Shown here one piece after another: positions 1,763 through 49,100 of a stretch of 64,000 nucleotides of DNA. The notes below the pieces were generated by a model. The model had not been told where the DNA came from, made no database searches, and saw only the letters and a program-made list of their open reading frames with translations. The position numbers and the translations under genes are program-made. Within the stretch, counting starts at the first letter, position 1; each line of letters begins with the position of its first letter. This DNA comes from Agapetus fuscipes (lineage: Eukaryota > Arthropoda > Insecta > Trichoptera > Glossosomatidae), in the NCBI GenBank assembly GCA_951799405.1, contig OX637363.1, positions 3,162,001-3,226,000 on the forward strand, given 5' to 3'.

Positions 1763-2011
1763 TATTGATTGTAGAGGCATTAACTTTGTAATCGTTCATC
1801 TTAAGAGATAAAAGGAAAAACCACTTTGTATTCGATTACTATGAGTATTTTATTTAATTTAATACCACAACCGGTTTCGCAAACATCCGTTAGCATCATC
1901 AGGTGGATAAATTTATGATGATGTGAACGGATGTTTGCGAAACCGGTTGTGGTATTAAATTAAATAAAATACTCATAGTAATCGAATACAAAGTGGTTTT
2001 TCTTTTTATCT
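1763..2011 (-). mobile_element. Foldback retroelement with hammerhead ribozyme
   Basis: A 249-bp insertion with long inverted arms (about 1820-1890 and 1925-2000) meeting in a short centre near 1895-1920. The 16-bp target duplication on both sides indicates insertion by nicked-target retrotransposition rather than by a cut-and-paste transposase. The minus strand of the left arm plus centre encodes a complete hammerhead ribozyme core. The right arm carries the same ribozyme 3' half, but the first base of its CUGAUGA core is changed. Small hammerhead-bearing retroelements are known from Penelope-like elements and retrozymes; no protein is encoded here, so this is a non-autonomous copy at most. 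Confidence 0.75.
1856..1913 (-). ncRNA. Type I hammerhead ribozyme (predicted)
   Basis: Read on the minus strand: the stem I 5' strand ends in CCAC (1906-1903), then the core CTGATGA (1902-1896). Stem II is GCTAAC paired with GTTTGC (one internal mismatch) around a GGAT loop, followed by GAAA (1878-1875). Stem III is the self-complementary ACCGGT, then T as the cleavage-site base, then GTGG (1868-1865), which pairs with CCAC. Beyond a small internal loop, AATTTA pairs with TAAATT and lengthens stem I. All conserved core bases are present. A stem III with no loop implies that it works as a dimer, as described for Penelope-like hammerheads. Cleavage is inferred, not shown. Confidence 0.75.
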
Positions 2012-2744: not shown

Positions 2745-3190
2745 TAAGATAGGTACTATTTACAAAAATAATAACTAAGTACACAGTTAAAATTTACTTG
2801 GATATTACACGAGCCGTTATAAGAGAACTTACATTATTCTCGACGTTTTGTTAACAACGTAGCTAAGACAGCAGACACCCTCTCTGCACGACAACTGAGG
2901 ATGAACTGATTTGTTTATTAAAAATTGTCACAAATCACAGCATACCTTGGAGCAAAGGTAGTAATTATGATAAGGTTAGTCATGAATATTTACACTTTTA
3001 TTATAAAAAAAAACAGTTCATCTTCAGTCGTCGTGCAGAGAGAGTGTCAGAAGTGAAGACGTTAGCTACGTCGCTAATGAAACATAGAGAATAATGTTAG
3101 TTCTCTTATAACTGTTTGTCTAATATCCGAGTACTATTTTTTAACTATGCAGTTATTATTATTGTAAATATGTAAAACAAACGTAACTCC
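2745..3190. repeat. Foldback / MITE-like inverted repeat
   Basis: Arms around 2755-2905 and 3010-3180 are reverse complements. Shared landmarks are 'ttataagagaact' against 'agttctcttataa' and 'ctctctgcacgac' against 'gtcgtgcagagag'. The centre is AT-rich. No coding content is seen. Confidence 0.65.
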
Positions 3191-3469: not shown

Positions 3470-6400
3470 TTACGGCAAATACTCTTGATATATGGGGGGA
3501 GGAGAATATTCCGGGGGCCTTAGAGACATTCTTCCCACGGGCGCTTCCTTCACAAACATTCTCCTGGTCCCTTTGAAAGACACTGTTTCAATCTCTGAAC
3601 TTTTCAGTCCTAGGACGACCTCAGGGCCTTGCAGAGATGCTTTGGGAGGATTCTTGAACCACGGAGTCAATTCCAGATCGTATGGAGGACGTTCGTCGTT
3701 GGAGTATTCCTGGTGGAGGCGCTTTAGTTCATCCTGGTCGCGGTAGAACATGCAGCAAGCTCGCAGGGTGAAGTAGTACAGGATCTCTACTCCGGAGAGT
3801 AAGGAGAAACCAAGGAATAGTCCGGCAATGCCTCCAAAGGATACTGTAAATAGCATGTTGATTAGGTTATAAATAAGTGCGGTATAAACAACAATATGAG
3901 AGTGGGAGTGAGTTTATAATGTATGTTCCTTGACTTATAGGTTGGTCCGTAGTTTAGACACTTCTGACTCGTAAATGGAAGGTTGTGGGTTGGAATCCCA
4001 GCGGAGCACAAAAAATATACCATTCATATTTTCAAATATGCTCTTCGCTGGGTGAAAAATTCATAAACCTTTATCAAAGACCGGTCACTAAAGGTCCATC
4101 CAGCCTTACAGCAACTGGGTCTTGCTTGAGAATTGGCGCTTTCTACAGCGACGACCAAGCTCGCAGAGGGCTTTTAAGGTGTGATTCACACAAAAACAGC
4201 GCTCAACAAATAAAGTCTCCCAATATTATTATTATTGGTATGCGGCTGACCACCCATGCAGTAGAAAATGGTTCACTTTACCAATGTCACCCTTGTTTCA
4301 GGAAAGGTCGGCAAGAGTTGCAGGGTATATGTTCATTTGAGGTTTGGATTTTTATGTTGTAGGTTCACATGCGGCAACCCCAGTAAAATTATGACACCTT
4401 TTCAACATTATTTTAGGACACAAATGTCTGGCATCCTTTGACACAATGAAGATGACAGACCATGTCTCCAGAATAGACTCACTCTCCCCTTATGAGATGG
4501 TGATTGGCTAGAGTCCAACTGGAAGACTCCATAAAAGCCGGACATCTTTTCATCACAATCTTCATTAGTAAGCGTCAGTGGCAAAGGGTGCCATACAACT
4601 CGATTCCCATCGGCTTCCCTTTTAAAATGAGGCAACAAAGTTGTTAAAAAATATAGGCACAAAGTAAAAGAATACATTTAAAACCAAAGAAACAACACAT
4701 ATCTTTCCCCATTGAAACCATGCAGTCTACTTCATTATCATTTTTGCCTCATTTTAAACGGGAAACCGATGGGAATCGAGTTGTATGGCACCCTTCGCCA
4801 CTGGTAAGCGTATAGTTGATTTACCGAGTAAGTCGACCCAGCCGAACAGCACTTCCCTCTTGTACCTCACCATAGGCCAGGACACAAACTCGGACTCCAG
4901 AGGACTGTTGGCGGCTTCTTCATCCTCACTCTTCGCTGCACTGGAACAATTACCACAAACACTTCCAAACTGTTACATTTAATAACAGTTACATAATTGA
5001 GTTCCCTCCTTGAAGATCTCCATTGGCTTAGAATCATAGGGTAAGTAATGATTATTATTCGTGACCGGTCCGTAGTCCAGTGGTAACACTTCGGACTCTG
5101 AATGAAAGGTTGTGGGTTCGAATCCCAGCAGAGCACAATAAATATACCTACCATTCATATTTTCAAATTTGCTCTTCGCTGGGTTGAAAAATTCATAAAC
5201 CTTTAGCAATGACCGGTCACCAAAGGTCCATCCCGTCTTGCTTGAGAATTGGCGCTTTGTAGCGACGACGACCAAGCTCATAAAAAGGTTGATAGCTCAA
5301 TCGGTAGAATGCCGAGAGCAAGGGTTCGATCTCAAGGCTTACTCAGCCTTTACAAGAAATGAGAACCGGAGGGCCGGGAGCGGGAAAACCCCCACTTCAA
5401 CTAAAAGTGGTTGGTATGAGGCCGGCCCCATTACCCGTAAAAATAAATAGGTCCCGAATCGCCACATGCGACTCCTTCGGGGATAACGCAGGCAAGAAGT
5501 TACACTATATATATAGCTTAGTTGCGTTTTTTTTTTTTTTTTTTTGCGTTGATAATTCATTAAATATATGAACTGATCATATTTATGGCCAGACAAAAAT
5601 AGGCTCGTGAATAACTTTCTATAATAAAAATATTTTTCACAAATGAAGTTGTAAAATAGTTATTTATGCCACTGCCTAGTAATCATAGTCTTTGTAACAC
5701 GAGTGCTAGTTTGTGCCATGAGGCGCAGCCGAATGGCACAATAGACAGCAAGAGTGTTACAAAGACTAATTATGTGCAGTGGCATACAATACTTTTTCTA
5801 CGACCATGAAATAAATAACAAAATAGTAAATAATAGTCATTATAATGTACTCGTCCATTTGAAGTAATTATACCCCACCTTTGTCAAACCGTGTAATTTA
5901 TCATTCCCCTCGATTATCTAATCTAATCAGCAAAGATATATTACATTTGGGATTCATTTTAAATTTATGGTTGCGCTTATACCATATAAGGGTTAACATT
6001 CAAACCCAATTCTGGCGAAACAGTTTGTTTTTTTTTGCGGGCAAAATATCTTGCATTATTTTCTTTTCAAGCCTTCTGTTTTCCTTCTAAAAAAGGAAAG
6101 CTACAATTTGGAATATTTTGATAAATAACATTGATGAATTATTACACTATTAACAATTTTTATTTGACTCTACGCATAAAATATATTCATTTACATTTGA
6201 ACAAAGATTGAACAAAGTGGGGAGGAACTATCAATAAATTGAAAATATTCATGTAATGGCTGACGTTTAAACGTGGTTGCTATGGAAACAGCCAATAATA
6301 GTTTGTTATCGGTCGCTTAGAAGAATAGCGTCATACGAGGTTGATACTCGAAATTCAAAAATGGTTCCATTTCTGACAATGCGCATGCGCACATTTTCAT

Positions 6401-9400: not shown

Positions 9401-12400
9401 TCAATAAATAATAATATGTATGGACATCAAAACTAAAACCAAAAACAAAATTCTAATTTTAAAAACCCTAGTCCTAGCAGCTAACATTACAGATCAACCG
9501 CCATTTCTTTCTGTCCCTACACACTTCTTTCATTCCATTCAGAGTTCTCTTCTTTTATTATGGCTCTGGATATTTAGGTTGAAACAGATAGGTATATAAT
9601 GTCTATTTTCTGAAAATAATTTCTAGTCCCCAGGTATCATATGTTAATGGTCTTACTTGATGGAGAGCTGTTTAGCATCAGGTGTGGTGTAGGTCTGCTT
9701 GACCGAGAAGGAGATCTTCTCCACGCGCCTGTCCCACACGTGCTGTGGGTTGGTGTCCATGCCTGGCATCTCGTCTGTAGAGTGGATGTACACCTGCGCA
9801 TACAAACATGACAATAGCAATAAGGAACTCGATACAACCAGAAAGTTGCTCGGCTATGTAACATCATCCAGGAGCGGGGGTCATTGGGGGATGGAAGGGA
9901 TGATCCCTTTGTATAAAATAGGAAAAATAAGTGGCTATATAAATACTATATAATAGTGCTATTCTTAGACATTTTGGTCGTCCGTTGAGCCCACGCTTTG
10001 ACAAACTAATGATGCCTGGGCTGGAAGTCTCATCACCAAGGTAATTCTTACCTACCGCTTGGTTCAACAGATGTCATTGGGTAATTGTTAATTAATCATT
10101 CTATAATAATGAGTAATTAATTGATATTGTTAATACCGGTTTCTAGCGAGGCAAAATAGCATTCCTCTTCACAATTCTATTTTTTTTTAAATAAGATATC
10201 AAGAAACTTCTGATTTCTGGTCACTATTGTACGTTGAATCATAAATTTATGAAAGTAAAAACAAAATGAAATGATATTTACATTAGTGAGAGTTCCCTTG
10301 TGGCTTGAGTCAAACACAAAGGACCATTTGGTGTCAGTTTCGTGGATGTAACGATCTAGAAATGGCTCCAGGCTTCCTGCCATCCTGAAAACAAAATCTC
10401 TCATTAATCCCCATCACATTGCACCCACTGACTTTTAGTCCATCCAATCTAGTCTAAGTTGCGAATATATGGAACATTGGGGATTCACATTATATGCATT
10501 TTCACAAGCAAACACGTATGAGTTCGCACTTAAACATGCCGCATGTGGACTTACAATATAAAAATCCAAATCTCAAATGAACAAAACGCACGCTTAATAA
10601 TAAAGAGCAATAACTCAAAAAATAAGAATGTTGGGAAATCACATTTGAAATTTAGACAACCAGTACAACTTGTATGGGATGAAAAAGGCGTCCGATGTTT
10701 TATTTCAGTCATATTCGTCCAAATTGAACGGCTGTCGCATTATACCTATTTTTCTCGCATTGTTCTTGCGTTTTATTACAAAATCTCGATTTTCTCAATT
10801 TTTGAGTTATTTCTCTTTATTATTAAACGTGCGATAAGCCCTACAACTTTTGCCGACCTTCTCTGACACAGGGGTGACATTGGCAAAGTGAACCATTTTT
10901 TACAGTATGGGTGGTCAGCCTCATACCAACCTGTAAGTCAAGGAACCTTAGTTACAAAAAAAAGTGGAATAAGAGGAGGATGAGTGATATACAAACCACG
11001 GCCACGATTTCTCTATGTGCCTCGAGTTGAAGGCGTAGCAGAAACCAACTTCAGTAAAAACAGGAGAGAACATCTCACAGCAATCCTCGTAGTCTGCCTT
11101 GAAGTAGCAGTCAAACAAGAAGTCCTCACAGCGAAGCACAACCTGGAATAACCATAATATATTCATCATCATCAATGGTGCAACCATCGGGTAATAACAC
11201 AGAGGAACTAACTAAGAAACTAGCTTACTGCATTGATACATACTATCTACCACTTTTGTCTCAGTCCTGTCAAACGTTGCAGATGTGTTGGCATACAAAA
11301 CATGTTATAACGTGTCAAATTTTATGTTTTCTTGCTTTCTCCATTCTGTGTTTTGACACCCAATTACGACACATGCTATCTGTTACTGTTACTGTATCCT
11401 GCCGCCGTTCCACTAGGGGTGGCCGGTACCTCCGCAGATGCGCCTCCACTTTTTTCTGTCCTTACAAACCACTTTCATTTCCTCAATATTCATCACCTTT
11501 TTCATACATACTCTTCTCTTATTTTCACTCTGCAGGTTCCATTCTTTCGCAATCTCACCTATTTGGTCTAACCATTCTTTCCTCGGCCTTCCCCTTCCGC
11601 GCTTTCCTCTGACATTTCCTTTGTACACTTTCTTCGTTAGTCGTTCATCATCCATTCTTTCGAGATGTCCGAACCATCTCATCGTACTTTTTTGTACTTT
11701 CATTCTCATATTCTCTTTTATACCACACTCGTTCATCACCCAATCATTACGTACTCTATCATTCAGTGTTTTTCCAGCATTGCTCTCAGGTAAGCCATTT
11801 CAACCGTACATACTTTACTCAGCTCACATTCATTAACTGTCCACGCCTCACTTCCATACATCAATGTTGGAACCAATATGCCATTGTGGACCGCCAATCA
11901 TATTCTTCGTAAGTTTCCTATTTCTTGCAATTCTTCCAATCGTTCCCATTACACTTCTTCCTCTACTAGCACGCTTTTCCAATTCTTTCGTCAATTTCCC
12001 ATTCGACTCAAACTTGCTTCCCAGATAATCAAATTCTTTCACGACCTCCACTCTTGTTTCATTCAGTCTTATCTCAATTTCCTCGCATTCCTCAGTCCTG
12101 TCAAACACTAATACTTTCGTCTTACTGGCATTCACTTTTAAACCGTTCTTACTAAAAGCATCATTCATTTTGGTGAGTATCATCTGGAGCTCCTCCGCTG
12201 TATCAGCCAACACTACGGCATCGTCAGCATAGAGAAGAACTCCAACATTCGTCTCACCCACTTTCACACCATAATGAGAAATTTCTGCTTCTTTCATACA
12301 ATTGTCCATGATTATGTTAAATAACCACGGACTCATTACACACCCCTGTCGTACTCCCTTGTAAACATCAAACCATTCGCTACATTTACCATCCACTCTT

Positions 12401-12851
12401 ACACACGCCAAACTATTTTCATAGATGGCGCGTATTCCATTCAGAAGCTTGCCGTTCACACCGTACTTTAGGAGTACTTTCCACATCATACCTCTGTCCA
12501 CCGAGTCAAAAGCCTTCTCGAGATCCACAAAAGCCGTGTAGACCTTCCGACCCACAGCCAGATGTTTTTCAACAATCTGTCTGAGAGTGAAGATCTGGTC
12601 TACACACCCTCTTCCTGGCATAAAGCCAGTCTGGATATCAGAAACCCCATGACCAGTAGACAGTCTCACTTTTTTTATGAGAACTTTACACAATACTTTA
12701 CCAGCTATACTGAGAAGACTGATGGGCCTGAAATTTTGGCAGTCCTTTTTGTCACCTTTTCCTTTGTAGATAGGAACAATGACCGCCTTTTTCCAGTCCA
12801 TCGGCACTTTACTCTCTTTCACACACATCTTGCACAGTTCAAACATCCATT

Positions 12852-12918
<67 letters not shown>

Positions 12919-15900
12919 GATAATTTGTTTTTTTAAAAATTCAACCATGCATTCTCCAGCACATTTGATCATCTCAGCATTCACACCATCATTCCCAGCA
13001 GCTTTTCCATTCTTCAGATCTTTTATACTTGTTATCACATCCTCTTTCACAATTTCTTCATCGCTGTCATTATATTCAACATCATAATAGTCTCTTTCGC
13101 CCTGGCCATATAAATTTTTAAAATATTCATTCCATCTCTTCCTTACATCACTTTCGTCCCACAGCAAGATTCCCTCAGCGTTTTTAATGCCTGGGGCCTA
13201 TAATGTCTTAAAATAATGCCCTTTTCCTTTTAAATTCATAAATTTTATCAATCACAAGATTTATACCGCATGCGTCTATGTTCGAACTGTTCCGGGCATA
13301 GTACGCATGCGGCAATGCTGCCACCTTTCCAGAAACATTTTTACATTTGCCTAAGTTTTTCTGTACACATGGAAACGCAACTGTGAAGTTTTGTTCTCTT
13401 TCTTACTAATGACCATTTTCATAAGTAGGTTGAAACATATATTTTTTTTTTTTTTTTTTTTTTTCCTTTATTATCTTAATATTTTTTTACAATACATACA
13501 ATGTATTTAATTGTTCCCGCAAAGCCGAGGCTTGTCTGCAGGTTACATTACCATATTTATAATATTGATTTCTTATATATGTTTCTTTGGATGAATTTGG
13601 TTTTATGATTTAGTTTTTTATGTCCATGTATATATTGTTATTTTTATTCTTTGATTTTAAAAAATGTAATTTGTCATGTATGTTCCTTGACTTATAGGTT
13701 GTTATGCGGCTGACCACCCATAATATAAAAATTGGTTCACTTTGCCAATGTCACCCCTGTTTCAGGGAAGGACGGCAAGAGTTGCAAGGCTTATGTTCAT
13801 TTGAGATTGGGTTTTTATATTGTAGGTCCACATGCGGCATGTGTTAGCGCGAAATTATACATATCTGCTTGTGGGAATGCATTTAGTATAAATCTTAAAT
13901 GATATATATCTTTGCAGCTTAGATTAGATTAGATTAGATATAATATAATCCTTATACATTAACCTTTAGGTGTTTAAAGTGTGTCTTAATGTTTTTTTTA
14001 AATTTATTTATATTTTTATCTTCATTTATGCTTTTTGGAAGCTGGTTGTATAGTTTAGGGATAACACATGCCAATGTTCTCTTCCCGTAGTAATTTACCT
14101 GCCGAGGCTCCCTCAGCCGCTGTGCCGAAACTAGTCTTGTCTCATTTGGGTGCGATATTTTTATTTTGTGCTCATCGTCAAGAAAATGATCCGTCATTAT
14201 TTTGTATTTGCATAGATTTTCCACCGATAAGACGTTGACATAGTTAAATAATATATTGTGATTATCTTTTGCTTCTTTTTTTATTTCTTTTGGAACCATG
14301 CATTTTAATATTCTGATTTGTATGTTCAGGATCCTGTCGATATACGATTTAAAAGTAAGGCCCCATATTCTTAGTCCATAGGTAATAATCGGCTCAACCA
14401 ACCCCATGTAAACCAGTCTAGGACTGTGTATGGCAGGTATGGTTTTAGATGGTACATGTTCAGAAGGCATATCCTTAGCTTGTTACAGACTGTCTTGACT
14501 TGCTCCTCCCAGTTGAAGTAGGAATCTATGATGATACCTAAGTACTTGTACTTATTCACAACATTTATTTTTGCACAAACACAGTCTCGTAGAGCTTTGT
14601 GAAAGCATTCGTATGTGTGGGCATATATTGTTATATCTTCCCTATGTTTATTATATGGGGAGGTGATGTTTATGACTTTTGTTTTTTCCATGTTGATCGT
14701 TAGACTATAGTCGTGTGACCATTTTATCACTTGGTTAAAGTCTGCTTGCAGTTTCTGCTGTGCATCTTTTTGAGTGTCACCGATTGATACTATAGCTGTA
14801 TCATCTGCAAATTGATAACAAATTGTTTGTGATGTGACTTTAGTCATGGAATTGCAGTAAAGCAAGTATTCTAAGGGTCTAATGACCGATCCTTGTGCCA
14901 CTCCCGTGTTTATTCTTGTATTTTTGCTGTAAGTGTCTTTTATTTTCACTGTTATGTGTCGATTTTGTAGATAGTTTCTTAGCAGTTGTTTGTATTTTCC
15001 TCTGATCCCGGCATCATCCAAGCATTCTTCAAGGCGAAGATGGTCCAGGGTATCGAAGGCTTTTGCATAGTCCACAAATATAACTATCACATGTTTCTTG
15101 TTATTTAATGCCTGGTTTATGGTATTTGCAAAATCAGTCAAAAGCTGCGTTGTGTTTTTCCTTTTTTGGAATCCATATTGTTGGGTATTTATGATTGCAT
15201 TCTTGTCAAGGTATTTAGTTATTTTTTGGACCAGGTATGTTTCAAAAATTTTATTTATGCATGTTAAAATAGAGATGGGTCTGTAGTTATAGTATTCCTT
15301 GTGTGAATTTCCTTTGTAAATGGGCCTTATTATTGATATTTTTAGACTGTCAGGGTACATACCCTTAGAAATACACATGTTTAATATTTTACATAGTGTT
15401 GCGCTTATGTTATCTTTCACAAACTTGATATCCTTTATTCTAATACAGTCTATACCAGTAGATTTTTGTGGATTTAGTTCAGATATGATTTTTTGAATTT
15501 CGGTTGGTTTTGCATATGGGATACGTAAAGATTGCATTTGTTTATTAGCATGTGGTGAGTTGTTCGGTAGAAGTTTGATTTGGCAATTATGTTTAATTTT
15601 TTCTACCTCAGAAATGAAACTGGAGGCAAAGTTATTTACTATGTCTTTCACATTCGTATTTGTGCCTAGGTGTTTCATAACAACGTCATCGATGGAATTT
15701 ACATTTTTTCCTGGTAAGCGATTTACCGTTTTCCAGGTTTTAATCATATTCCCTTTCGTTTTTTCAAATTCGGTTTGATAATAATTTATTTTTGCTTTTT
15801 TTATTTCCACAGTCGTTCTATTTCGTAGTTTGACGTATTTATTTCTATATCTATTATTTGTTGGGCAACTTCTCCATTTTCTAAAGGATTTGTCCCTATC

Positions 15901-18900
15901 GTGCATCATTTGTTGTAAGTTGTGGGTAATCCAGCCTTCATTGTTTTTTTTACTTGTCAGGGCCTGTTGTTCATAAGTACATTTATCATATATGTTTTGA
16001 AATATTCCGACAACTTCGTTAAGCAATAATATAGGACAGTCGTATTTTGCTGCAACGTTTTCCCATTTAATGTTAAGTAGCATGTTTTCTATTTTTTTAT
16101 TATTCAACAGCTTTGAATTTTCCGCTTTTTTAGATCTCGGTGTAGTTGTAAAGGGTACACATAGCGCCGTGACGTAATGGTCAGAGATTTTGTGTTTAAT
16201 AATTGAGGAATATATTGGGTATCTATGAAGACGAGTAAAAATGTGGTCTATGCAGGTTTGGGTGGTATTGTTTCCACTAATCTCTTCTCTAGTAAACTCA
16301 TATATACATTCATCCATTCCATAATTACATAGAATATCCTTATATCTTTGCGTTAGTATGTTATTATTATCTTTTGTGTCTATATTCATATCCCCAATAA
16401 GTATTAATTTCTCGTTTCTTGCATAGTTCTTTAAAAATATATCAAGTTCATTAAGGAACAATAATTTTTGCATAGATGGTGGGCGGTATATGCACATAAC
16501 ATTAAGTTTGGTCTCTTCATGCGTGACTCGTAGATATAAGCTTTCGCAGTTTCTAAAAATTGAGTCAGCTGTTGTGCATTTAAATCTATTTTTTATATAT
16601 ATCATAATTCCACCACCGCGGCGGTCAGTCCTCAGCTTAAAGTGTTTTTCGTATCCATTTAGATTATAATGATGAGCCGCGTCTGGTTTGATGTTGACTT
16701 CGCTTAGTATTATTATATCAATTTTATCATTTGTGTTTTTTAGAAGTACATATAGTTGATCAAAGTTTTTTCTTAAGCTGCGTATGTTCAAGTGAATGAT
16801 ATTTAATTTATTATTTGAACTTAGTAGTGACTTCATCCACTGCTCTATCTGTTGATGGACAGTGAAGACAATATTTTCATTATCAAAGTCTGCGCCGATA
16901 GTATTTATATTTTATCATAAGTAACTTATATTATTGAAATGAAGGCTATGACGTCAGGTATTAAATGTTTGCGTCTGCGCCTGTGCCCAGTGCATTTATT
17001 CGCTCCTGGCTCGTACTCGCCGTGTCGTTACAGCGGAATATTTTATCAATATCCATTTCCATATTTATAATAAACGGTCTTATTTGCGCTGCATTTCGTT
17101 TAACAAGTATCTTGCCATTTTTGATCCATACGATATATTGTCTATTTTCGTTAAAAGAATTTCTAGTCCACAGATATCACAAGTCAATGGGTGCAACAAT
17201 CTGGATGGGTTTCGGCGTCCTTAATCAATTGCAGTCACCGCTGCCTGCCCAACGCCTTCCTCCTCCAGTCCCATTCTCCTCTTACACAGCAGTCTGCCAC
17301 CACTCACTTGTCCAGCCACTTTAATTTGGGTATTCCCACTGTCCTACACCCGTTCGGGTCCGTCATCGCAACTATCTTTTCCAGGCTCGAATGGTCCATT
17401 CACCAAATGTGACCCAACCAATGCGGTCCGCTGGGCTGGATTCTGTTTACAAGATATCTCGTCAATGTTTTGGTGCATTTATGTATTTTCTTCGCACATG
17501 TGTTCCCATCATTTATTGGTCCATAAATAAAGCAAATTATTTTCTTTTCAAAGATGTTAAGAGAGCTCAGGGCACACAAGATCAGTGCCAAGGTTTCGGA
17601 GATATTTGAGTAAGGGTTTAACTAGTGTTTTGTAGAGTGTAGTTTTACAACTCTGTGACAGTAACCGTGAATTAAACTGTCATCATAATCAATTGGTTAC
17701 TTAAAATCCTTACAAAAAATAAGAAAATAGCAATGAATCAGGTAAATTATTATCCTGATGCTTTTTCATTGAGAACCAATCAAAAATGAAATATCTCACA
17801 TCAAACACAGCTCCCCGGAGGTTGTCCCCCACTAGAGCCAAGTCTGCGTCTCCAGCATACATGGCGGCCTCTTCCTTTATGGTGGAGAAGCTCAGGGTAG
17901 AGAGGAACTGCAGGAACCTCTCATACTTATTCCGATCCGAGCTCTTGATGTTCGGCCATGTTCTGTAAATTACAAAATATCAGTCTGGATGTAGAGAAAA
18001 AGCAGACAGTACGTGAATATAAAATAGAATGTGTGCATGTTGGTAATTATGAGTTACGTAGTATTATAGTATACTTATTATACTTATTTATACTTATCGT
18101 ACTGGGTGCTACCGCTAGCATCGCCAAGAACCAGAATCTTTCAAAAAATGTTTGACTGGCGGTGCACGGTGGTATACTAGTGCCCACTCTGATGTATGGA
18201 AGTAAAGCCTGGACGGTGAGTGAAAGTGAGATTAGTAAAGTCCATACAGTGAAAATGGACTACTTAAGAAGTATGATTGGAAAAAGACTGAGTGATAGGG
18301 TGAAGAATGATTTTGTTAGAGAGGAATGTGGTGTAAGAGAAAGTGTGAAAGTAAAGATTAAAAGAAGTATACTTAGATGGTTTGGACATTTGGAGAGAAT
18401 GAATGAGGAAATACTGACGAAGAAAGTATATGCTGCAAGAATTGATGGATGTCGTGGAAGAGGAAGACCGAGAAAGGTATGGATGGACCAAATTTTCGAA
18501 ATAGCGAGTGAATGGGATATCCAGAGTCATAATAAAAGAAGAGCTTGTATGAAACAGGTTATGACTCTGGATGAAATGAAAGAAGTATGCAAGGACAGGA
18601 AGAAGTGGCGGCTAATCTGCAATGCTGATTTGTAATGTTAGTTTATTAGTTTGCTACATTTTTTGCATAAGAATTTTTTGACTTTTTTGTATAGATTTAT
18701 TTTTAAGGTTTTGTTGTTGTTTTTTTTTTTTTTTATACTTAAATGTTATGTATTACTCGTATTCCTTGACTTATAGGTTAGTATGAGGCTGACCACCCAT
18801 ACTGTAAAAAATGGTTCACTTTGCCAATGTCACCCCTGTTTCAGGGAATGTCGGCAAGAGTTGCAGGGCTTATGTTCATTTGAGGTTTGGATTTTATTTG

Positions 18901-24640: not shown

Positions 24641-25527
24641 TTTTGACGTTAAAGTTAAAAATCTAAAAAGTTTTTAACAAAACCGTGATCGTAACACAAA
24701 AAAAATAATGATAAGCATGTCCATATATTTTTTGATCAGAGCAGATTTTTTATTTACTGCATATTTATTTTGTATTTTTAGCAGATAGACATGATTATTT
24801 GTAGATTACTAACAATTACTATAAAAGGACCCAAGGAGACAAAAGGTATTTTCTGGAATTTGAAATTTCAGACTTAAAAAAAACTCAAAATTTGCTAGTG
24901 TCAATAAATTAAGACACTTGGAAGAATATATTTGAAAGAAAATCAATTTACGAGATGATTTAAATTACTAACAAAAAAAAAATTTGAATATCAGTTTTAA
25001 ATCGACATTTACGGTACGTACCTATAACATGCAACAGTATTGATAGAATTTAGCTGATCCAGATTTGAGATAACAAACATGAAAGGGCTAATAACCGTGA
25101 CATTGGGTATATCTAATGGCACGCTTAATGCTTTAATCGATAGGTATGATTTGAATCATATTTTTTACTTGAATAGGAAAGGGCACATAGTAGGAGGGAT
25201 GGAGAATATAAGAGTTTGTAAAAATAGGTATTTTATATATATCTACTTAATCTATATATATCGACTGCTCCAAGGAAAAAGGAAGTAACTCCGAAATTTA
25301 GGTTTTTGACTTATTTCCATTTCTGAAGGTAACAAATCATTATCTTCATTCCAAGATGACAGCCGTGTCTCTATCTCTTTTAAATTCGTTAATAAGTTAA
25401 TGTAAAAAATGGTTTATGCATTGTACTCCATGGAATAAATAACATTCAATTGGCTTTCCTGCAAAACTATATTTTTTGACTTAGTGCTGTCTTCCTTGGA
25501 GCAGTCCATATATAAAATCAAACGGAT

Positions 25528-25604
25528 GTATGTATGATGATGATGATGATGTCTCCATCCTTCCGGGCTTGTAGACCATGTTCAATAATTTTAGGCTGCT
25601 TTAT

Positions 25605-25635
<31 letters not shown>

Positions 25636-25868
25636 CCTTTTTGTAAGGCTGCTACGTTTCGTCAGTGACTTACGACTGACTTCTTCAGGGCTTGTACTTC
25701 GACCGTCGAAGAACAAGCCCTGAAGAAGTCGTACGTCACTGACGAAACGTAGCAGCCTTACAAAAAAGGAAAAAAAAAAAAAAAAAAAAAAAAAGAATAA
25801 AGCAGCCTAAAATTATTGAACATGGTCTACAAGCCCGGAAGGATGGAGACATCATCATCATCATCTGA
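25528..25868. repeat. Near-perfect ~340-bp palindrome (foldback)
   Basis: The arms of about 160 bp are almost identical in reverse complement. From the outside in they contain GAT/ATC triplet repeats, 'cttccgggcttgtagacc', a long homopolymer (T left, A right), 'gctgctacgtttcgtcagtg' and a small TTCGACCGTCGAA centre. The inner arm resembles a hammerhead 3' half (GACGAA-ACGT-A). It is non-coding, and the transcript would form a long hairpin. Confidence 0.85.
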
Positions 25869-25946
25869 AGCCGGCCATGAAAGCCTAAAAACACTTAGGA
25901 TGTATGTATGTTTGCCCTTATAATCTCCTTGCGATTGAACTAACTA

Positions 25947-33033: not shown

Positions 33034-36000
33034 ATGTCTGTTAATTGGCCAGAATGTCCAGCCAGCTTGAAATCTATCCAGCATTACTTGAAGACGGCAA
33101 GCGAGCACGATAATCGGGATCCCGTAGTGGCCTATTGGTGTAGATTGCATGCAGTGCAAGTTGGCCTTAAATTATCCACCAGGAAGATTCCAGAAGAGAC
33201 TAAACTGCTCATGGGTAAAACGAATATATATATTTTTAACTAATTACATCAATAATTCACCGATTATGTGTCGTATTTTGCTAAAATGACGACATGTTTT
33301 CATCATGTCAAAATCTTATCAGATTTCTTCGATCCAGTGACGTCATTGGTGTTCTTTTTATAAACTTGAAATGTGAGTTGTATAGTAGCAAAGGCGGTAA
33401 TCTAGTATTTAATTACTTCATACATTAGTAACAAGCGGTACAAGGATTGAACCATTGAGTAAAAACATACAGGAGGAGAATCTAACTTACTGTATTAAGG
33501 CATACTATCTACCACTTTTGTCTCAGTCCTGTCAAACGTTGCAGTTGTGTAGTCATACAAAACATGTTTTTACGTGTCAAATTTTAAGTTTTCTTGCTTT
33601 CTCCATTCTATGTTTTGACACCCAATTACAATACATGCCATATGTCTTAAAACAATGCCTTTTTCCTTTAAAATTCGTCAATTTTATCGATCACAAGATT
33701 TATACCGCATGCGTCTATGATCGGACTGCTCCGGGCATAGTGCACAAGCGGCAATGCTGCCACCGATCTAGAAACATTTCTTTACATTCGCCCGAGTTTT
33801 TTTTACACATGGAAATGCAACTGTGAAGTTCTTTGTTCTCTTTCTTACTAATGCCCATTTTTGTAAGTAGGTTTAAAACAGATATAGCTATATTGTTTAA
33901 TTTTGTTAAAATAATATCTAGTCCACAGATATCACAAGCCAATGGATTGAGCTATATGCAGTTGGGTTTGTAATGTATTCTAATCTAATCTAAGTTGCAA
34001 AGATATGTTACATTGGAAATTCACATTATATGCATTCTTACAAGCAGACTCGTACAAGTTCGCGCTTGCACATGCCGCATGTGAACATACAACATAAAAC
34101 CAAATCTCAAATGGGCATACACCCTGCAACTCTTGCCGTCCTTTCCTGAAACAGGGGTGACATTGGCAAAGTGAACTATTTTTACAGCATGGGTGGTCAG
34201 CCGCATACCTACCTATAAGTCAAGGATTCCTTCTTTGAACTGATGAAATGCTGCCAGAATATACAACATTTTTCCCAGATTGGCCACGAGTAACATTATC
34301 AGCGGCGAAGCGTGCCATACAACTCAATTCCCATCGGCTTCCCTTTTAAAATGAGGCAACAAAGTAGTTAAAAAAACCAAAGAAACAATACATATTTTTT
34401 CCCCATTGAAACCATGCAGTCTACTTTATTATCATTTTTGCCTCATTTTAAAAGGGAAACCGATGGGAATCGAGTTGTATGGCACCCTTCGCCACTGGTA
34501 GATATATTATACCATTATGGAGCATTATAAATGTCATGTGTTTGTTATTTTTCATTCTTCTGACAATACCTTGTCTTGATTACATTTCAGCTCTGATGGA
34601 CTGGCTAGAAACGGAAAAGCAGAAACTCCATGACAATGAGTCCGTCACAAATAAAATAGCCGGCCAAGCGTACTTGGAGAATTACGCTCTCAAACTGTTT
34701 TTGTACGCCGACAAAGCCGACAGAGAAGGAAATTTCGGAAAGTAAGCTTTTTAAAATGTTTTTTTTTATTTCTTGGTCATGTCTAATGTCGCTACTTCAA
34801 GTCTCACCACCATCCTCCAGGACTCTCTGTCTTGTGCAGCCTCAGAACGTGGTCCACTGACACCTAGGACTACATTATCACGTCACTATGCAACTAAACG
34901 CACCTTATTTAATTTTAATTTAAAAATAAAAAATAAATAGATTTGTGAAGAGGAATACAATTCACCAACCTAGTCTGCCTGGCCAGAAACAGGTATTAAT
35001 ATCATCAATTAATAATTCATTCTTATATATTTTAATAAATTATTAATTAATAATTACCCAATGAAATCTGTTGAACCAGGATCAAAGTTATGGTCAAATG
35101 ACTCAAGCGGGGATCGAACAAACGTTATTCTATTCCAAATACGGTAGAAAGATCGGCCACTTGACCTATGCTACACATATAGTGTAACTTCTTGCCGCGT
35201 TATTCCCAAAAGGTTTTGCGAGTGAAACCTATTTATTTTTACAGGTAAATGCCGGCCTTACTCCAACCACTTCAGTGGAAGTGGGGGTTTCCCAACTCCC
35301 GAGGCGGCTGGTACTCATTTCTTGGGAAGGCAGAGTATGCCTTGCTGGTATTTTATTTTTGGGGTTTGAAGCACTGAATATAAGCACCGAAACAGGAAAT
35401 CATTTCTGACACCCTCGGTGGGATTCAAACCCAATCTCCCGGCATGGAATGCAAGCACTCTACCAAATGAGCTATTGACCGGACCATGCGGCTACAAGAC
35501 ATAATGAGGCTGACCCCCCCCCCCCCCCCGTGCTGTAAAAATCGGTTCACTTTTGCCAATGCCACCCCGGCTTCGGCAGGAGCTGCAGAAGGTTTATGTT
35601 CATGAAAGGTTTTGTTTATTTGTATGCACGCATGCAGAATGTGTATGCGCGAACCTACATGTGCCTGTCTGTGGGCATGTATTTAAATGAGCCTTAAATG
35701 TTAAGATATATTTGCAGCTTAGATTATAAACTATAGATAGATGCACATCCTTATTACCGTATACCTTTTTGTCATGTGTAATGTTGTCTGCCATGAACAT
35801 TCTAGAGTTCTCATTTGTTTCTTCTATTCTACATTGATTTGTTTATAATTCCAGGAACGTAGTGAAAGCTTTCTACACCAGTGGAATGATCTATGATGTG
35901 CTGACTATTTTTGGTGATTTGACTGAGGAAGTCATTCAGAACAGAAAGTACGCCAAGTGGAAGGCTGCATATATACACAACTGTCTTAAAAATGGAGAAA

Positions 36001-37143
36001 CCCCAGTCTCGGGTACATATATCTTTTTTTCAACTTCATTATTGTAGTAAACCAGGGATGGAAGTCTCAATGATTGTCAGTAGATCTTAGTGTATCTACT
36101 TGAAGACAGGACTTAATAAAACATGGCGGGGTAGCAACAGCAGGCCCATTTTATTTGGAACAACGATCAGCTGTTTAAGTACTGTACGTCAACGACGATA
36201 CCATGTTGGAAGTACCGGTTCTCATCAGATCACCGAAGTTAAGCATCACTGGGCGCGGATGCTACCTGGATGGGTGACCGCTCAGGTACACCGCGTGTTG
36301 TTGGCATTTCTTGGACCGGTCTGTAGTCCAGTGGCAACACTTCGGACTCGTAAATGGAAGGTTGTGGATTTGAATCCCGACGGAGCACAAAAAATAAACC
36401 ATTTATATTTCCAAATGTGCTCTTCGCTGGGGTGAAAAATTCATAAACCTTTACCAAAGACCGGTCACTGAAAGGTCCATCCAACCTTACAGCACCTGGG
36501 TCTTGCTTGAGTATTGGCACTTTGTAGCGACGACCAAGCTTTTACACCTCTGCGGCACTACAACAAGTGTCTCCCGCACAGGATTTCTTAAAAAAATTAT
36601 ATCTTTTATAGTTTGTGTATTACTGTGAAAATTCGGTGTTGATCTTTTTTTAAAAAAGGTTTTAATTTATTTTGAATAATAAAACAAGTCTTTTTTTGTA
36701 TGTTTGCAGGTCCCTTGCCTTCCGATGACGATGAAGCTTTAGAAGGCACATCCAACGAAGATAACATCAACCAACCTTCAACCTCGCAGGATGTCCCTGA
36801 ACCACCAGAAAACACTGAAAACAAACCGTCTAATATTGGCTTTACCGCGTTTCCCGATCAACCCTTTGTCCCGCCACCAGTTGGCCTCTTGCCGTCTGTC
36901 CCGTATACCCCGGACCCCAATCCCGGCGGCTTCCATGCCTTTGTTCCAAATGTGCCTCCGCCAACCCCGGCCCCAGTTGAACAAGCTAACTATCCAACTT
37001 TAACTCCTGACCAGATTGCCAAGGCGCAAAAGTATTGTAAGTGGGCCAGCAGTGCCTTGACGTATGACGACGTAAAAACTGCCGTTGAAAATTTGAATAA
37101 TGCTTTGAAACTTTTGCAGACTGGGCATGATCCCTGCCAGTAG
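33034..37143 (+). CDS. VTA1: VTA1, ESCRT-III/VPS4 regulator
   Basis: Vacuolar protein sorting-associated protein VTA1 (LIP5), the cytosolic cofactor that stimulates the VPS4 ATPase in multivesicular-body sorting. Coding exons are 33034-33214, 34591-34741, 35855-36012 and 36710-37143; GT-AG sites and phases close to 924 nt (307 residues), the same length as human VTA1. The N-terminal tandem MIT-like domain includes SLKSIQHYLKTASEHDNRD, the ENYALKLFLYADKADRE region and KYAKWKAAYIHNCLKNGE. A proline-rich acidic linker follows. The C-terminal VPS4-binding dimerisation segment is AQKYCKWASSALTYDDVKTA with NLNNALKLL. The start codon is the first in frame and is preceded by CCACCAAC. Introns hold SINEs, MITEs and a 5S-like sequence. 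Confidence 0.95.
33440..33950. repeat. Repeat E, uninterrupted copy
   Basis: This copy serves as the empty-site reference for the nest at 11190-17205. It reads continuously through 'acccaattacaatacatgcc' and 'aagtaggtttaaaacag', the two points where LINE-A and LINE-C are inserted in the other copy. It is in VTA1 intron 1. Confidence 0.8.
33977..34228 (-). repeat. LINE-B 3'-end copy
   Basis: Complete minus-strand copy in VTA1 intron 1. Confidence 0.85.
34303..34500. mobile_element. hAT-type MITE, second copy
   Basis: The same inverted ends as 4576-4803 (CAGCGGCGAAG and CTTCGCCACTG) with a shorter middle. The flanking target duplication is not convincing. Confidence 0.75.
34930..35160 (-). 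repeat. SINE3 copy
   Basis: The uninterrupted counterpart of 1-480: 'gaggaatacaattcaccaac', an AT-rich body and 'gcggggatcgaac' (B-box complement). Confidence 0.6.
35163..35485 (-). repeat. SINE2 copy
   Basis: A minus-strand copy abutting SINE3, with its head near 35460-35485 and a degenerate B-box region near 35425. Confidence 0.8.
35500..35728 (+). repeat. LINE-B 3'-end copy, diverged
   Basis: It begins 'aatgaggctgacc' with a run of C inside and ends 'cagcttagattataa'. In VTA1 intron 2. Confidence 0.65.
36188..36305 (+). rRNA. 5S rRNA-like sequence
   Basis: About 118 nt beginning GTCAACGACGATACCATGTT and ending GTGTTGTTGGC. The internal control region GATCACCGAAGTTAAGCATC and the block GATGGGTGACCGC match eukaryotic 5S rRNA at full length. 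The ends can pair (GTCAACGAC with GTTGTTGGC). The gene lies in VTA1 intron 3, with no clear T-run terminator. A SINE1 starts 8 bp downstream. Several substitutions suggest a pseudogene or a 5S-derived repeat rather than a working array copy. Confidence 0.7.
36313..36600 (+). repeat. SINE1, B-tailed variant
   Basis: Full-length copy from GACCGGTCTGTAGTCCAG to 'gcacaggatttcttaaaaaa', directly after the 5S-like sequence. Confidence 0.8.
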
Positions 37144-38369: not shown

Positions 38370-38960
38370 AATGAAATATTGTTAATTTTACATTATTTTG
38401 TATTTCTTCTTCCTCTTCTTAATCTTGTTCCTCATTGTTTAGGGTTGCGACCCTTGTGGAAGCACCCACTCATCTCCAGTTCTCTCTTAACTAGGTACCA
38501 ACCTCCAACAACAGAGGGGCCTGCTGCTGTCTTCACTTAACTCCATCATACAGGGGATCTTCCTCTCTTCCCTTCCAAGCCACCGATCAAGGCCAATCAT
38601 TCCAGGCTACCCTCATTGCCATGGACAATGTGTCCGAAGAACTTAAGAATACGGCATGTACATATACTGGTTAGAGTCAATCAACCCAAACGTAGCTCCG
38701 AACGAATGGACTGGTTGGTACGTCCAGCCATCCATGGGATCCGGGGCATGCAACTCCAGCACCACATTTCAAAAGCGTCAATTCCTCTCCTTCCTGCTGC
38801 TTTTATGGTCCCATGTTTCAGCAGCATAAAGAGAAATAGAGTGGACCAGACTCCTGACAAGCTTTATCTTGGTGATATTACTGACACCCCGGTCTTTCCA
38901 TATTTTGTCCAGCTTAGACATGGCACTTTTGGGAATGGCGATATCGCACCTTGAGAATGA
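38370..38960 (-). pseudogene. Decayed LINE remnant
   Basis: Minus-strand translation gives AIPKSAMSKLDKIWKDRGVS and then an IALYGAETW-like region, typical of the C-terminal part of RTE/jockey-type LINE proteins, with stops and frameshifts. Confidence 0.6.
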
Positions 38961-39206
38961 AAGTGACCTATTCCAAAATTTTGGTAAAATGAGTTACATA
39001 CATAGAATGACTTAAAAAGGTACACTCTATTACACCTGTATTTAAAAACAGATTATTTATGGTCAAAGAGTGATAGAGGCATACTTCGGTCTCTTTGTCT
39101 TTTAATAAAAGTGCAATAGATTGTACCTTTTTGAGTCATTCTATGTATGTAAGTCATTTTACATTTTTTTCAAAATAGGTCACTTTCATTCTCAGGGTGC
39201 GAATAT
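38944..39206. repeat. MITE-like inverted repeat
   Basis: Arms of about 75 bp: 'cgcaccttgagaatgaaagt' on the left and its complement near 39190-39206. 'tacatagaatgactt' on the left is mirrored by 'gagtcattctatgta' on the right. The centre is unpaired. Confidence 0.75.
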
Positions 39207-41069: not shown

Positions 41070-41285
41070 ATGAAGTATTGTGATAGTTGTACTGTTATCC
41101 AAGACAGTTGAGAAAGTAATCTTTCGTATTTTGGCCAGTTCACGTGAGTTTGACATTTTAAACCTACCAAACTTGATTTTACAATATAGGGGTTCTTGAT
41201 TTTGGCACCACGTGAACTGGCCAGAATACGAAAGATTACTTTCTTAACTGCCTTGGATAAAGGAAGCACCACAAAAAAAGTTGTA
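41070..41285. repeat. Foldback element
   Basis: Inverted arms 'gagaaagtaatctttcgta' and its complement near 41225-41245, including 'ggccagttcacgtg' and its complement. The loop is about 60 bp. The span 41290-42420 shows no supported gene. Confidence 0.75.
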
Positions 41286-43810: not shown

Positions 43811-44299
43811 AGCTCACTTACATTGGACTAGTATTAGGAGTATTCCTTGAAACTCAGATAATAAAATTTTATGAAAAAAAATTATGTAGCTTGGATGAGA
43901 TGAAAACCTTAAGCATTTATCATTCAGGCCCATAGTCTTCCGTATCAAGAAAAAACCACTTGAAATGTTAAAGCTTTCTGTTAATGTGTTATAAGCAAAT
44001 GATTTTCAGCGGATTCAATTTCTGTTACACTGCAGAATGTAAGAGTTAATAAAATTAAGTAAATTATTAAATGCTAATACTAATCTAAATGATTTTATTA
44101 ATAAATGAAAAATAACAAGTGAATTTGGAATGAATATGTGGGACAGTCTTGATGTATCTTTTTGATGACATGACGTAATAAAACATGGCGGCGTATCAAC
44201 AGCTGATCCATTATGGAACAATCATCAGCTGTTCAGGCACCGCCATATTTTATTCCGTCCTATCTTAAAATCTACCGACGGCCGTCGAGACTTCCACCC

Positions 44300-44476
44300 C
44301 TGGGCTGGAAGTCTCATCCCCACGGTAATTCTTACCTACCGAATATCGGTAATATTTTTATGAAGACCTGTCGATCCAAGATGGCCGCAGGTGAACAGCT
44401 GATTAGTCTTCGTGCAAATATTACCGATATTCGGTAGGTAAGATTTACCGTGGTGATGAGACTTCCAGCCCTGGTC
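44300..44476. mobile_element. MITE-like inverted repeat
   Basis: The ends 'gggctggaagtctcatcc' and their complement 'gatgagacttccagccc' enclose mirrored 'cttacctaccgaatatcgg'. A second short hairpin precedes it at about 44170-44260. The core is shared with 56197-56439. Confidence 0.75.
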
Positions 44477-46179: not shown

Positions 46180-49100
46180 CAAACAACCAATCTCCCGCTG
46201 AGCATGAAGAAGAAGACGAGTGCGGGAGCCGAGCGGTCAAACGGATCCCCCACCATGTAGTGGGAGTAGGCCGCCAGCACCATCAGGAACAGCAGCCCGA
46301 CGTTGGCCGCGTTCTTTATCTTATCTGAAACACAGCGTAGAAGGTTTTTAATACCAGCAAACAGAAATACTTGAACTGTGGAACCTTTAAGGATAATTTA
46401 GTCATAATTCCTTGACTTATTTGTAGGTTAGAATCAACCTAGCCAATTATAGACGTAGACTTATAACAATCAAGTGGGCGCGTTTGTGGTGTCTCGGATT
46501 GACTATTGTTCGACGCTTTATAGTGGTCAGCCAAAGAAGTAGTTCAATCGCTTTCAATCTGTGTTGAATTCGGCAGCAAGACTCATATTCGGGATACCCA
46601 AATTCGCTCACATCACTCCGCTGTTAAAAACACTACATTGGCTTCGTTTACCGGAGAGGGTGGTCTACCGTGTTTGTGTGATGGTATATAAAGCCATCAA
46701 TGGCTTGGCTCCACCTTACTTGACTGACATGATGTTGCCTGTTGAGATGGGTGTAAGGAGGCAGACACTCAGATCCGCGGGCGATGAAGTAGTCAATTTG
46801 GTTCAGCCACGCCGTCAGATTCGTACAAATTTCGGAGACCGCGCTTTCCGTGTTGCGGGTCCGGTGGAGTGGAACAGACTGTCACCCGGAGTGAAGAACT
46901 CCAAATCTATGGATGTATTTCGCGGAGCACTCAAGACACACCTATTTAGAAAGTCTTATCCATGATCGGAGAGGGCCCTTGAGGTGTGACACACACAAAA
47001 ATGGCGCTCTCTTTTCATTTGTAATTTAAAATAAATTAGCCTGATATTATTATTATTATTATTAATCAATTATAGACTTAGACTTAGATTAAATCTTAGA
47101 AATCCAAGTCTAATCTAAATCTTAGATTTAGATTTAGGTAGGAAATAGGTACTCTAGATCTAAGATTTAGATTTAGATAGGTTGGTATGACGCTGAACAC
47201 CCTTACAGTAAAAATGGTTCACTTTAAACTTTTTAGAGTTTGCGTCTTAATCAATATAGGATGGTTCACTTTTCCAATGTCATTCCTGTTTTAGGGTAGG
47301 TAGACAAAAGTTGCATGGTTTATGTTCATTTGAGGCTTAGATTTAATTTGTAAGTACACATTCAGCATTTGTAAGCGCAAACTACACGTGTTTGTGGGCA
47401 TGCATTTGATATCGCCCTTGGGGTGGAGCCACTAAGAGAAAAAAATTATCCAACTATATATACGAGCTTATATTTTGGCAACTTAGATTATAGAGGTATA
47501 GATAACAATATAAATTGTGGAGAAATCATTCTTTTTAGTAATAATTGTAGATGATTGGCATAAAAAAACCTTATGATTTAAGAGTGTACTTACGACTAGG
47601 TATGGCTGCCATCGCTAGACCGAAGATGATCTCCATGGAGCCGATAATTCTTCTGTACCATTTCGACGGCACTTTGAAATCCAAATAATCCGTTAGCGGA
47701 AAAACTTTTGCGTATTTCACATATTCTTTTCTCTGAAAAAGACACAAAGTAACATTTTAATCCTATGTAGAGTTTATTTCATTTCTTTTTTAAAAATACT
47801 AAATCTTAATCTAAATCTAAGCTGCAAAGATATGTATCATTTGAGATTCATATTAAATGCATTCCCACAAGCAGACACACATAATTTCGCGCTTACACAT
47901 GCGGCATGTGACATGCCGCATGTGGACCTACAATATAAAAAACCCAATCTCGAAGTGAACCTTCGTAGACGTTATTGCTATAATCTAAGTTGCAAATATA
48001 TTATGTAACATTATTTGTTGATTTCTAATGTTGGTGTATTCATTTGCTACATTTTTTGCATAGGAAATTTTTGACTTTTTTTGTATAGATTTCTTTGTAA
48101 GGTTTTGTTCTTTTTTATATTTAAATGTAATTTATTATTCATATTCCTTGACTTATAGGTTGGTATGAGGCTGACCACCCATACTGTAAAAAATGGTTCA
48201 CTTTGCCAATGTCACCCCTGTTTCAGGGAAGGTCGGCAAAAGTTGTGGGGCTTATGTTCATTTGAGGTTTGGATTTTATTTGTAAGTACACATTCAGCAT
48301 TTGTAAGCGCGAACTACACTTGTTGGTTTGTGGGCATACATCTGAGAGCTTTAAATGAATATATCCTTGCAACTTAGATTATAGATTATAGATTATAGAT
48401 ATGCATTTTCACAAGCAGACACGTATAAGTACGCGCTTAAACATACCGCATGTGGACCTTCAATATAAAAACCAAATCTCAAATGGACATAAGCCCTGCA
48501 ACTCTTGCTGACCTTTCCTGAAGTAGGGGTGACATTGGCAAAGTAAACCATTTTTTACAGTATGGGTGGTCAGCCGCATACCAACTAACTGATGATAAAA
48601 AGGTATATACAGTGGAGCCTCGTTAATCCGAGCCCCTAAAAACACAGGAGGGTTCGAAATAACAGGGAGTTCGGATTATAACATGCGACAAAATCTATGG
48701 AGGTGAAAAATATGAATTTGGGATTTGTTTGTGTTTTATTTATTGAAATTGTATTCAATTGTAATTTAAATTAAAAAAAGAAGTAACTCATATTTTATAT
48801 TGTCCTGCATATTTCCTTCTGATCGACCATGGATGACTGCAGTTTCTTATGTGAAATAATTTAGATCAATTTCTTATATGCGTAAGTACATAAATACTTA
48901 AAAATATTAAATAAGACTTAGAAAGTTTGTTCACTTCCTACTAATATCCAGCTAGTTTTCTTTTCTTTCCTGATTAATTTGGCTGTCTAATCCCAAATTT
49001 ATTTTTAGTTTTTTTTTTCTTAAGTGGCTTGAGCTGGCCAGGATTAAGGGCGGTTCGAGCGCTGCGAGCGAACCAGGGCCCCCGCGTCCTAGCGGCCTCC

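Follow-up and report, generated by a model that had tools for sequence, protein, structure and literature searches.

Related elements

Penelope-like elements (PLEs) with inverted pLTRs are already known. The part of PMC3846280 available to us describes them in Adineta vaga, where a tail is optionally present on one of the inverted pLTRs, the elements are flanked by a target-site duplication (TSD) and palindromes are found at the junctions. For PAc (Poseidon, Anolis carolinensis), both strands are cut and extended, and synthesis starts internally (PMC11167929). The PAc tail is the sequence between two reverse transcription (RT) start sites, and these sites do not differ between the strands (PMC11167929). 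Inverted pLTRs are not discussed in that paper; the word 'inverted' is used there once, for a blocked DNA end. According to the accessible part of a review (PMC6155905), PLE hammerheads are minimal and lack helix III. In PAc, hammerhead cleavage was seen only in the presence of protein, and mutants of the hammerhead were still inserted (PMC11167929).

The insertion described here is located at positions 1763-2011 of the 64,000-nucleotide stretch of Agapetus fuscipes DNA that was analysed (the window). It is an ORF-less, non-autonomous Penelope-like insertion, and its identity as a PLE is close to certain. Like the A. vaga elements, as the available part of PMC3846280 presents them, it has head-to-head inverted pLTRs, one of them shorter, together with a TSD and junction palindromes. 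An earlier note on this DNA had called the inverted-arm layout unusual, a view that does not survive the comparison. The A. vaga tail measures 31 bp and is found on one pLTR, and pLTR and tail reach into the start of the ORF, as they do here. In contrast to A. vaga, the ORF is missing in our case, and inverted pairs are apparently frequent, with 1571 first-look candidates, of which 40 were scored. With PAc, the insertion shares a hammerhead motif at the pLTR-ORF border, two putative internal RT starts that delimit the tail, and AT-rich targets. However, the PAc ORF begins at stem II, whereas the frame begins about 90 nt later here. Animal retrozymes, in the portion of PMC7229834 at hand, are likewise short and ORF-less with type I hammerheads, but their units are tandem and cleaved to unit RNAs and circles, while here the units are inverted and the inserted templates were uncleaved.

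The copies look like the genomic outcome of a PAc-type reaction, in which two cDNAs, one per strand, would be joined where they ended. In a limited literature search that included papers available in part, a link of PAc-type two-strand synthesis to inverted pLTRs was not found in print. The informative part of our data is the set of copies and the mechanism that we infer from it; the copies bear on both the origin of inverted pLTRs and the retention of the ribozyme in Penelope elements. The many short foldbacks (1571 and 1069 first-look candidates in two families) make this a counting problem, in which junctions, tails and shared variants are scored per copy, and such copy-by-copy scores are comparable with in vitro reactions.

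Structure of the insertion

The 249 bases of the insertion (1763-2011, minus strand) form a foldback of two head-to-head copies of a PLE mRNA 5' end (pLTR), as judged from its inverted arms and the genome copies. The inverted arms span 1805-1901 and 1916-2012 (97 nt each), are 97% complementary and are spaced by 14 nt. Read on the minus strand, the insertion begins AGATAAAAAG and finishes CAATCAATA. A direct repeat of 16 nt, 15 of which match, flanks it as left (1747-1762) and right (2012-2027) target-site duplication.

The 42 nt on the 3' side (1804-1763, minus strand) form a tail without counterpart in the second arm. Its last 37 nt correspond to the open frame of the autonomous PLE (MNDYKVNASTIN), and the outer end of the tail at 1763 would be the distal RT start site. 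Arm B (1805-1912, minus strand) adjoins the tail and is the pLTR copy with the complete hammerhead core. Arm A (1916-2011, plus strand), the second pLTR copy, is tail-less and ends at the putative proximal RT start site. Both arms meet in a centre junction (1902-1916), where according to the junction parse the two cDNAs would be joined; arm A extends to +2 and arm B to -14 relative to C3, with a microhomology of 1 nt. The core of arm A (1917-1948, plus strand) is 'broken', as both the motif and the junction parse place the arm stop within the CUGAUGA box. The earlier note had pointed to one intact and one broken core; other copies break elsewhere or retain both cores. The broken core looks like the point where one (shorter) cDNA stopped, not like a design.

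The insertion is located in a host repeat (1381-2510) with a TCTAA-unit end and GTTGGTATGCGGCTGACCACCCATGCTGT at the opposite end. This repeat recurs in the window (48159-48585) and forms inverted pairs. By eye, three insertions from two PLE families (the present one, the L093 group and L102) occupy a near-identical spot in the host repeat, CAGACATGTATAA and variants of it. A target preference is a possible reason for this shared spot.

Copies in the genome

A search of the genome (618 Mb, 148 contigs) with the element as query resulted in 1571 first-look candidates, 40 of which were scored. The match extends over exactly positions 1-249 in 33 of these 40 places, the window included, which upholds the boundaries 1763-2011; the 249-bp insertion with a 16-nt target duplication reported before is real, with 15 of 16 duplicated positions matching. 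In addition to the 40 loci, nine were fetched with a two-tailed and three with a tail-less query, giving 52. Sixteen of these loci (L013-L021, L023-L028, L031) share their flanks and represent one insertion copied inside another repeat. The following counts refer to 37 independent insertions, which are the best-scoring ones and not a random sample.

The TSD was measured in 32 of the 37 insertions, with one mismatch allowed. Its median length is 14 nt (range 4-18), compared to the 8-10 bp given for A. vaga PLEs in the available part of PMC3846280, and it comprises at least 8 nt in 29 of the 32. In most insertions, the long side ends CAATCAATA and the short side stops at or a few bases past TTTTTATCT. 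One end deviates in L033, L034 and L035, and most other copies end alike. We inspected the flanks by eye and found a tail on one side in 36 of the 37 insertions, on neither side in one (L081) and on both sides in none. It is partial in L035 and internally shortened in L082 and L083. The two-tailed query was matched as a whole in none of its own 40 scored hits. In L006 and L076, the insertion is immediately adjoined by the start of a second PLE tail, in a tail-to-tail arrangement; we read this extra piece as a neighbour and not as a second tail of the insertion.

Long inverted repeats and TSDs would also be found in a Foldback- or MITE-like DNA transposon with terminal inverted repeats. The ends of our copies, however, are not inverted copies of each other since the tail is one-sided, the TSD length of 4-18 nt is not constant, and the junctions differ. 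The sequence is that of a PLE mRNA 5' end, and the identity of the tail also speaks against such a transposon, to which we give hardly any credence.

Diversity of the centre junctions

The centres could be parsed in 32 of the 37 insertions, resulting in 30 junction types as defined by arm A stop, arm B stop and filler. Only two pairs of insertions have a type in common (L006 with L083, L072 with L078), and the 16 duplicated copies of one insertion display a single type. The parse failed on the anchors in L002, L007, L011, L036 and L040, whose centres are mutually different when read by eye. Twenty of the parsed centres contain no filler and show a microhomology of 0-4 nt; filler is found in the other 12, where the rough parse counted as filler some arm sequence that it had missed in L032 and L038.

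It is conceivable that the foldback itself is the mobile unit, with a master that is transcribed whole and copied as one hairpin RNA, after which the unstable centre of the palindrome decays. Such a master would be in line with the mostly constant ends, the many relatives (40 scored out of 1571 first-look candidates), the resemblance between the arms of one copy and the two pairs with a common junction type (30 types in 32 insertions), and deletions in the centre would also yield asymmetric arms with microhomology. However, a separate centre deletion would be needed in nearly every insertion, even in L022 and L039, where the arms hardly differ and the centre is nevertheless their own. The 16 copies of one insertion all have the same centre, although they may be young, and filler bases are present at some centres. 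Moreover, a reverse transcription that starts internally would presumably not copy a whole foldback. A master foldback is therefore unlikely in our judgement. The foldback is probably made anew at each insertion, by two-sided target-primed reverse transcription (TPRT).

None of the 64 parsed arms extends upstream beyond -19 relative to C3. The pLTR of the partner PLE continues upstream, with CACACCATTT before AGTATT. In the simplest reading, the template RNA begins near the A of AGTATT.

Likeness of the two arms

In the alignment of all 37 copies, arms diverge by 4.1% within a copy and by 6.1% between copies, a difference that none of 20000 permutations reached (0/20000 as low). This comparison supersedes an earlier one on 25 copies (permutation p 0.0002). 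We scored eight variable arm sites at which the rarer base occurs in at least four arms. The rarer base was found in both arms in 39 cases, where 15.5 would be expected for independent arms, and in one arm in 37 cases. Columns 53, 61 and 64 are concordant by 27 to 4; the AT-rich columns 29 and 36 are split by 24 to 5, close to the expectation for independent arms. Among the 107 arm-arm differences, 50 involve a base that is seen in at least two arms of other insertions. The arms may resemble each other because they derive from one RNA, from RNAs of one locus or from subfamilies active at different times, or because of later exchange between the arms.

The likeness would also be accounted for by self-priming, in which the cDNA or an antisense transcript would fold on itself at the 5' end and prime its own copy. 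This route was proposed and favoured for the A. vaga PLEs by the authors of PMC3846280, in the part available to us. The copied arm should then carry the tail and run on, but in most insertions examined, arm A stops next to the TSD, at the proximal site. In L071, L073 and L075, both arms are nearly complete at the joint and no filler is present, which leaves no room for a hairpin loop. We regard self-priming as slightly less probable still than a master foldback, and two-sided TPRT remains our preferred reading.

An autonomous Penelope-like partner

A GIY-YIG search of the genome gave 16 places, several of which adjoin hammerhead-type motifs, and protein searches led to PLE families with many near-identical open copies, some of them in tandem. 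The family that we regard as the partner includes C2:23642831/23645480/23648129 (tandem) and others. Its pLTR pieces in L079 and L080 contain CTGATGATGCGAACGGATGTTTGCGAAACCGGTT, which is the majority foldback hammerhead without any change, and ATGAACGATTACAAAGTTAATGCCTCTACAATCAATA, the equally unchanged last 37 nt (the coding part) of the tail. Over 154 nt, the partner pLTR and the foldback are 87.7% alike. L085 has an open frame of 838 residues (...MMNDYKVNASTINK...) with a provisional start codon, and the tail stretch is found close to the start of this frame. The frame matches RVT_1 (1e-12, 48.6 bits, cut-off 29.6) and, barely over the cut-off of 22.6, GIY-YIG (1.1e-4, 22.9 bits). L080 is a single 3' end of the partner family and stops near the same CAATCAATA. 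A more distant PLE family has, as read, tailed (L065, L066) and tail-less (L067) ends.

The foldback thus combines the features of a PLE: a partner with a reverse transcriptase and a C-terminal GIY-YIG domain that shares its pLTR, though not identically, a hammerhead motif 5' in the pLTR, a one-sided tail and a TSD. The search for relatives and for a Penelope-type reverse transcriptase, with its many copies flanked by target duplications and a PLE partner with RVT_1 in the same genome, bears out the suggestion that this is a mobile, non-autonomous retroelement tied to Penelope.

L057, which adjoins a GIY-YIG ORF, was dropped as a partner because the pLTR of its own family (L064) differs.

The hammerhead motif

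On the minus strand, positions 1902-1869 read CTGATGA-T-GCTAAC-GGAT-GTTTGC-GAAACCGGTT, a hammerhead-type core. C3 is located at 1902, A9 at 1896, stem II at 1894-1889/1884-1879 and G12-A14 at 1878-1876. Stem III is a loopless ACCGGU (1875-1870), followed by U17 at 1869, after which cleavage would be expected. In the fold, the 3' strand of stem I (GUGG, 1865-1868, minus strand) pairs with 1903-1906. The type I core CUGANGA / GAAA / UH with its three stems is present, with two deviations. Position 1895 adds a base between A9 and stem II, and stem II contains a U·U mismatch (1892/1881). The minimal motif with a loopless palindromic stem III is therefore there as the earlier note had read it. All core bases are likewise in place, but the accompanying claim of pairing stems and a canonical core has to be qualified by the mismatch and the extra base.

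The extra base follows A9 in all ten PLE-type motifs listed from this genome, where it separates CUGANGA, or a decayed form of it, from stem II. The U·U mismatch is found in the window copy only, among 25 aligned insertions, most of which have G·U. Across ten genome motifs, with strands chosen by eye, the majority rather than the window sequence used for this family, and decayed motifs (L064's own) and the near-duplicate L061 left out, the stem II pairs are standard in 50 of 50 cases with differing letters, i.e. they covary. Shuffles gave 63% standard pairs on average, and 0 of 10000 reached 100%. Hammerhead motifs adjoin PLE ORFs in L058, L063, L065, L068 and L079.

Rfam searches at the gathering score detected no hammerhead in the whole window, and none was found at E<=10 on the element and on one arm of the second foldback, or on the pLTRs of the PLE loci L079, L065, L068 and L063. 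The attribute 'canonical' can hardly be kept for a motif with an extra core base that Rfam scores neither on the element nor on four PLE pLTRs. The covariance-model search had been named beforehand as a refuter, and it gave no match; in our judgement, the other evidence outweighs the missing match for PLE origin, though not for catalysis. The single-strand fold of the window core is no better than that of shuffles (z about 0), so that the fold alone is not evidence. Folds of pLTRs and arms differ from shuffles only weakly (z of -1.1 for L079, -0.7 for L065 and -1.7 for the majority foldback arm). The minimum free energy fold pairs GGU with ACC rather than forming the loopless stem III, which a monomer could not form for want of a loop. 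In L079 and L065, whose folds are only slightly better than those of shuffles, the initial AGUAU and AGUAA are paired with AUACU and UUACU, respectively; stem I would thus end at the putative 5' end of the RNA. It is the copies as a set, the covariation in stem II and the autonomous partner that exceed chance.

The arms span the cleavage position in the copies read, so the templates of these copies were uncleaved there. The self-processing RNA suggested in the earlier note is not supported by these data. A genome-wide pattern search (at most 2 mismatches) revealed no foldback joined at the cleavage position; the palindrome pattern gave one place with 2 mismatches, which is not an arm, and the reversed control pattern also gave one. 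A retrozyme-type element that uses a circular RNA from two ribozyme cleavages would be equally small and ORF-less with a hammerhead motif, and animal type I retrozymes are known (PMC7229834, in the part available). In the copies read, with flanks of 40 to 1500 nt, the units are inverted and not tandem, however, and the tail is PLE coding sequence. Together with the templates being uncleaved at the site and no cleavage-site-joined foldback being found, this makes a retrozyme about as improbable as the DNA transposon discussed above.

By eye, we noticed an initiator-like word, T[TC]AGT, 15-17 nt upstream of C3 in the pLTRs of L079, L065, L058 and L063. The foldback centres of L010, L070 and L076 read GGTATT where the pLTR has AGTATT. 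Speculatively, this could be a copied cap.

A model of insertion

We consider it likely that the element, which is made of the 5' end of a PLE mRNA, arose by two-sided TPRT of uncleaved pLTR RNA, where the two-sided synthesis is what we infer from the fixed ends, the single tail, the diverse centres, the within-copy arm likeness and the fact that no arm runs past the putative 5' end. As suggested by the arm stops, the RNA would start inside the PLE pLTR, some 17 nt upstream of C3 and close to the A of TTTAGTATT, which would place the ribozyme motif at the very 5' end of the transcript. The RT/GIY-YIG protein of the PLE would bind the pLTR region and cut both strands of an AT-rich target. Judging from the fixed ends, priming would be internal and occur at two sites, the pLTR end and a site about 42 nt further inside the start of the ORF. 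Each target strand would receive its own cDNA, usually one distal-primed and one proximal-primed. Both cDNAs would run to the 5' end of the RNA, and host repair would join their ends, giving a mirror-image insertion with a target duplication. The templates inserted would have carried an uncleaved ribozyme. Against this model, the autonomous pLTR found is only about 88% like the foldback family, so it may not be the exact source of the RNA. The uneven pattern at the variable arm sites, the two pairs with a common junction type, the five unparsed centres and the choice of copies by score also count against it.

The start sites of PAc are alike on both strands, which leaves the one-tail rule without explanation. 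It is possible, although we hold it with considerable doubt, that inverted pLTRs in general result from two-sided TPRT in which one RNA, or a dimer held by stem III, serves both strands, with the distal start used first and the proximal one second. The one-tail rule and the likeness of the arms would then follow from the single RNA or dimer and the ordered starts. If so, the hammerhead might have its lasting role not in cleavage but in pairing RNA or docking a protein at the 5' end of the transcript.

Other foldbacks and features in the window

A second foldback, from another PLE-type family, is located at 25537-25897 (plus strand), as recognized by its motif, inverted arms and copies. Its cores CTGAAGA-A-GTC..GAC-GAAAC are found at 25688-25656 on the minus and 25720-25748 on the plus strand, a tail is present only at 25866-25897, and a TSD (GGATGTATGTATG) was read by eye at 25524-25536 (left) and 25898-25910 (right). 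The family gave 1069 first-look candidates. Forty of these were scored, and none of the copies among the matches listed has a tail on both strands. The motif of this family is also found in L060, 1.3 kb away from a GIY-YIG frame. Among 16 fetched loci and the window copy, seven centres were readable, all of them different; five loci (L093-L097) are one nested insertion, and L098-L102 were left out of the centre parse. L102 resembles an insertion of one arm only, flanked by a TSD. A third, older foldback is located at 2757-3170; its core is of the same type but decayed and reads GTGAAGA-C-GTTAGC..GCTAAT-GAAAC (plus strand, 3053-3086). The second foldback follows the same plan as the insertion at 1763-2011, with one tail and varied centres, and the decayed third one resembles them.

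Further foldbacks in the window lie at 5654-5797, 34297-34500, 38944-39202, 41095-41260, 44299-44474 and 59167-59267; a hammerhead pattern search inside these six gave no match. For annotators, it may be useful to know that foldback hairpins produce weak matches to microRNA families. The mir-30 match to the foldback hairpin reached an E-value of 3.7e-8, yet stayed under its gathering score, and microRNA identity (MIR6224, mir-30, mir-9436) was rejected, as the matches are below the gathering scores and explained by the foldback. A search of a phage collection gave no match. Positions 36188-36306 match 5S rRNA (86.8 bits) and represent a gene or a 5S-derived repeat. According to their translations, the long minus-strand frames at 11848-13197 and 14371-16911 resemble LINE reverse transcriptases.
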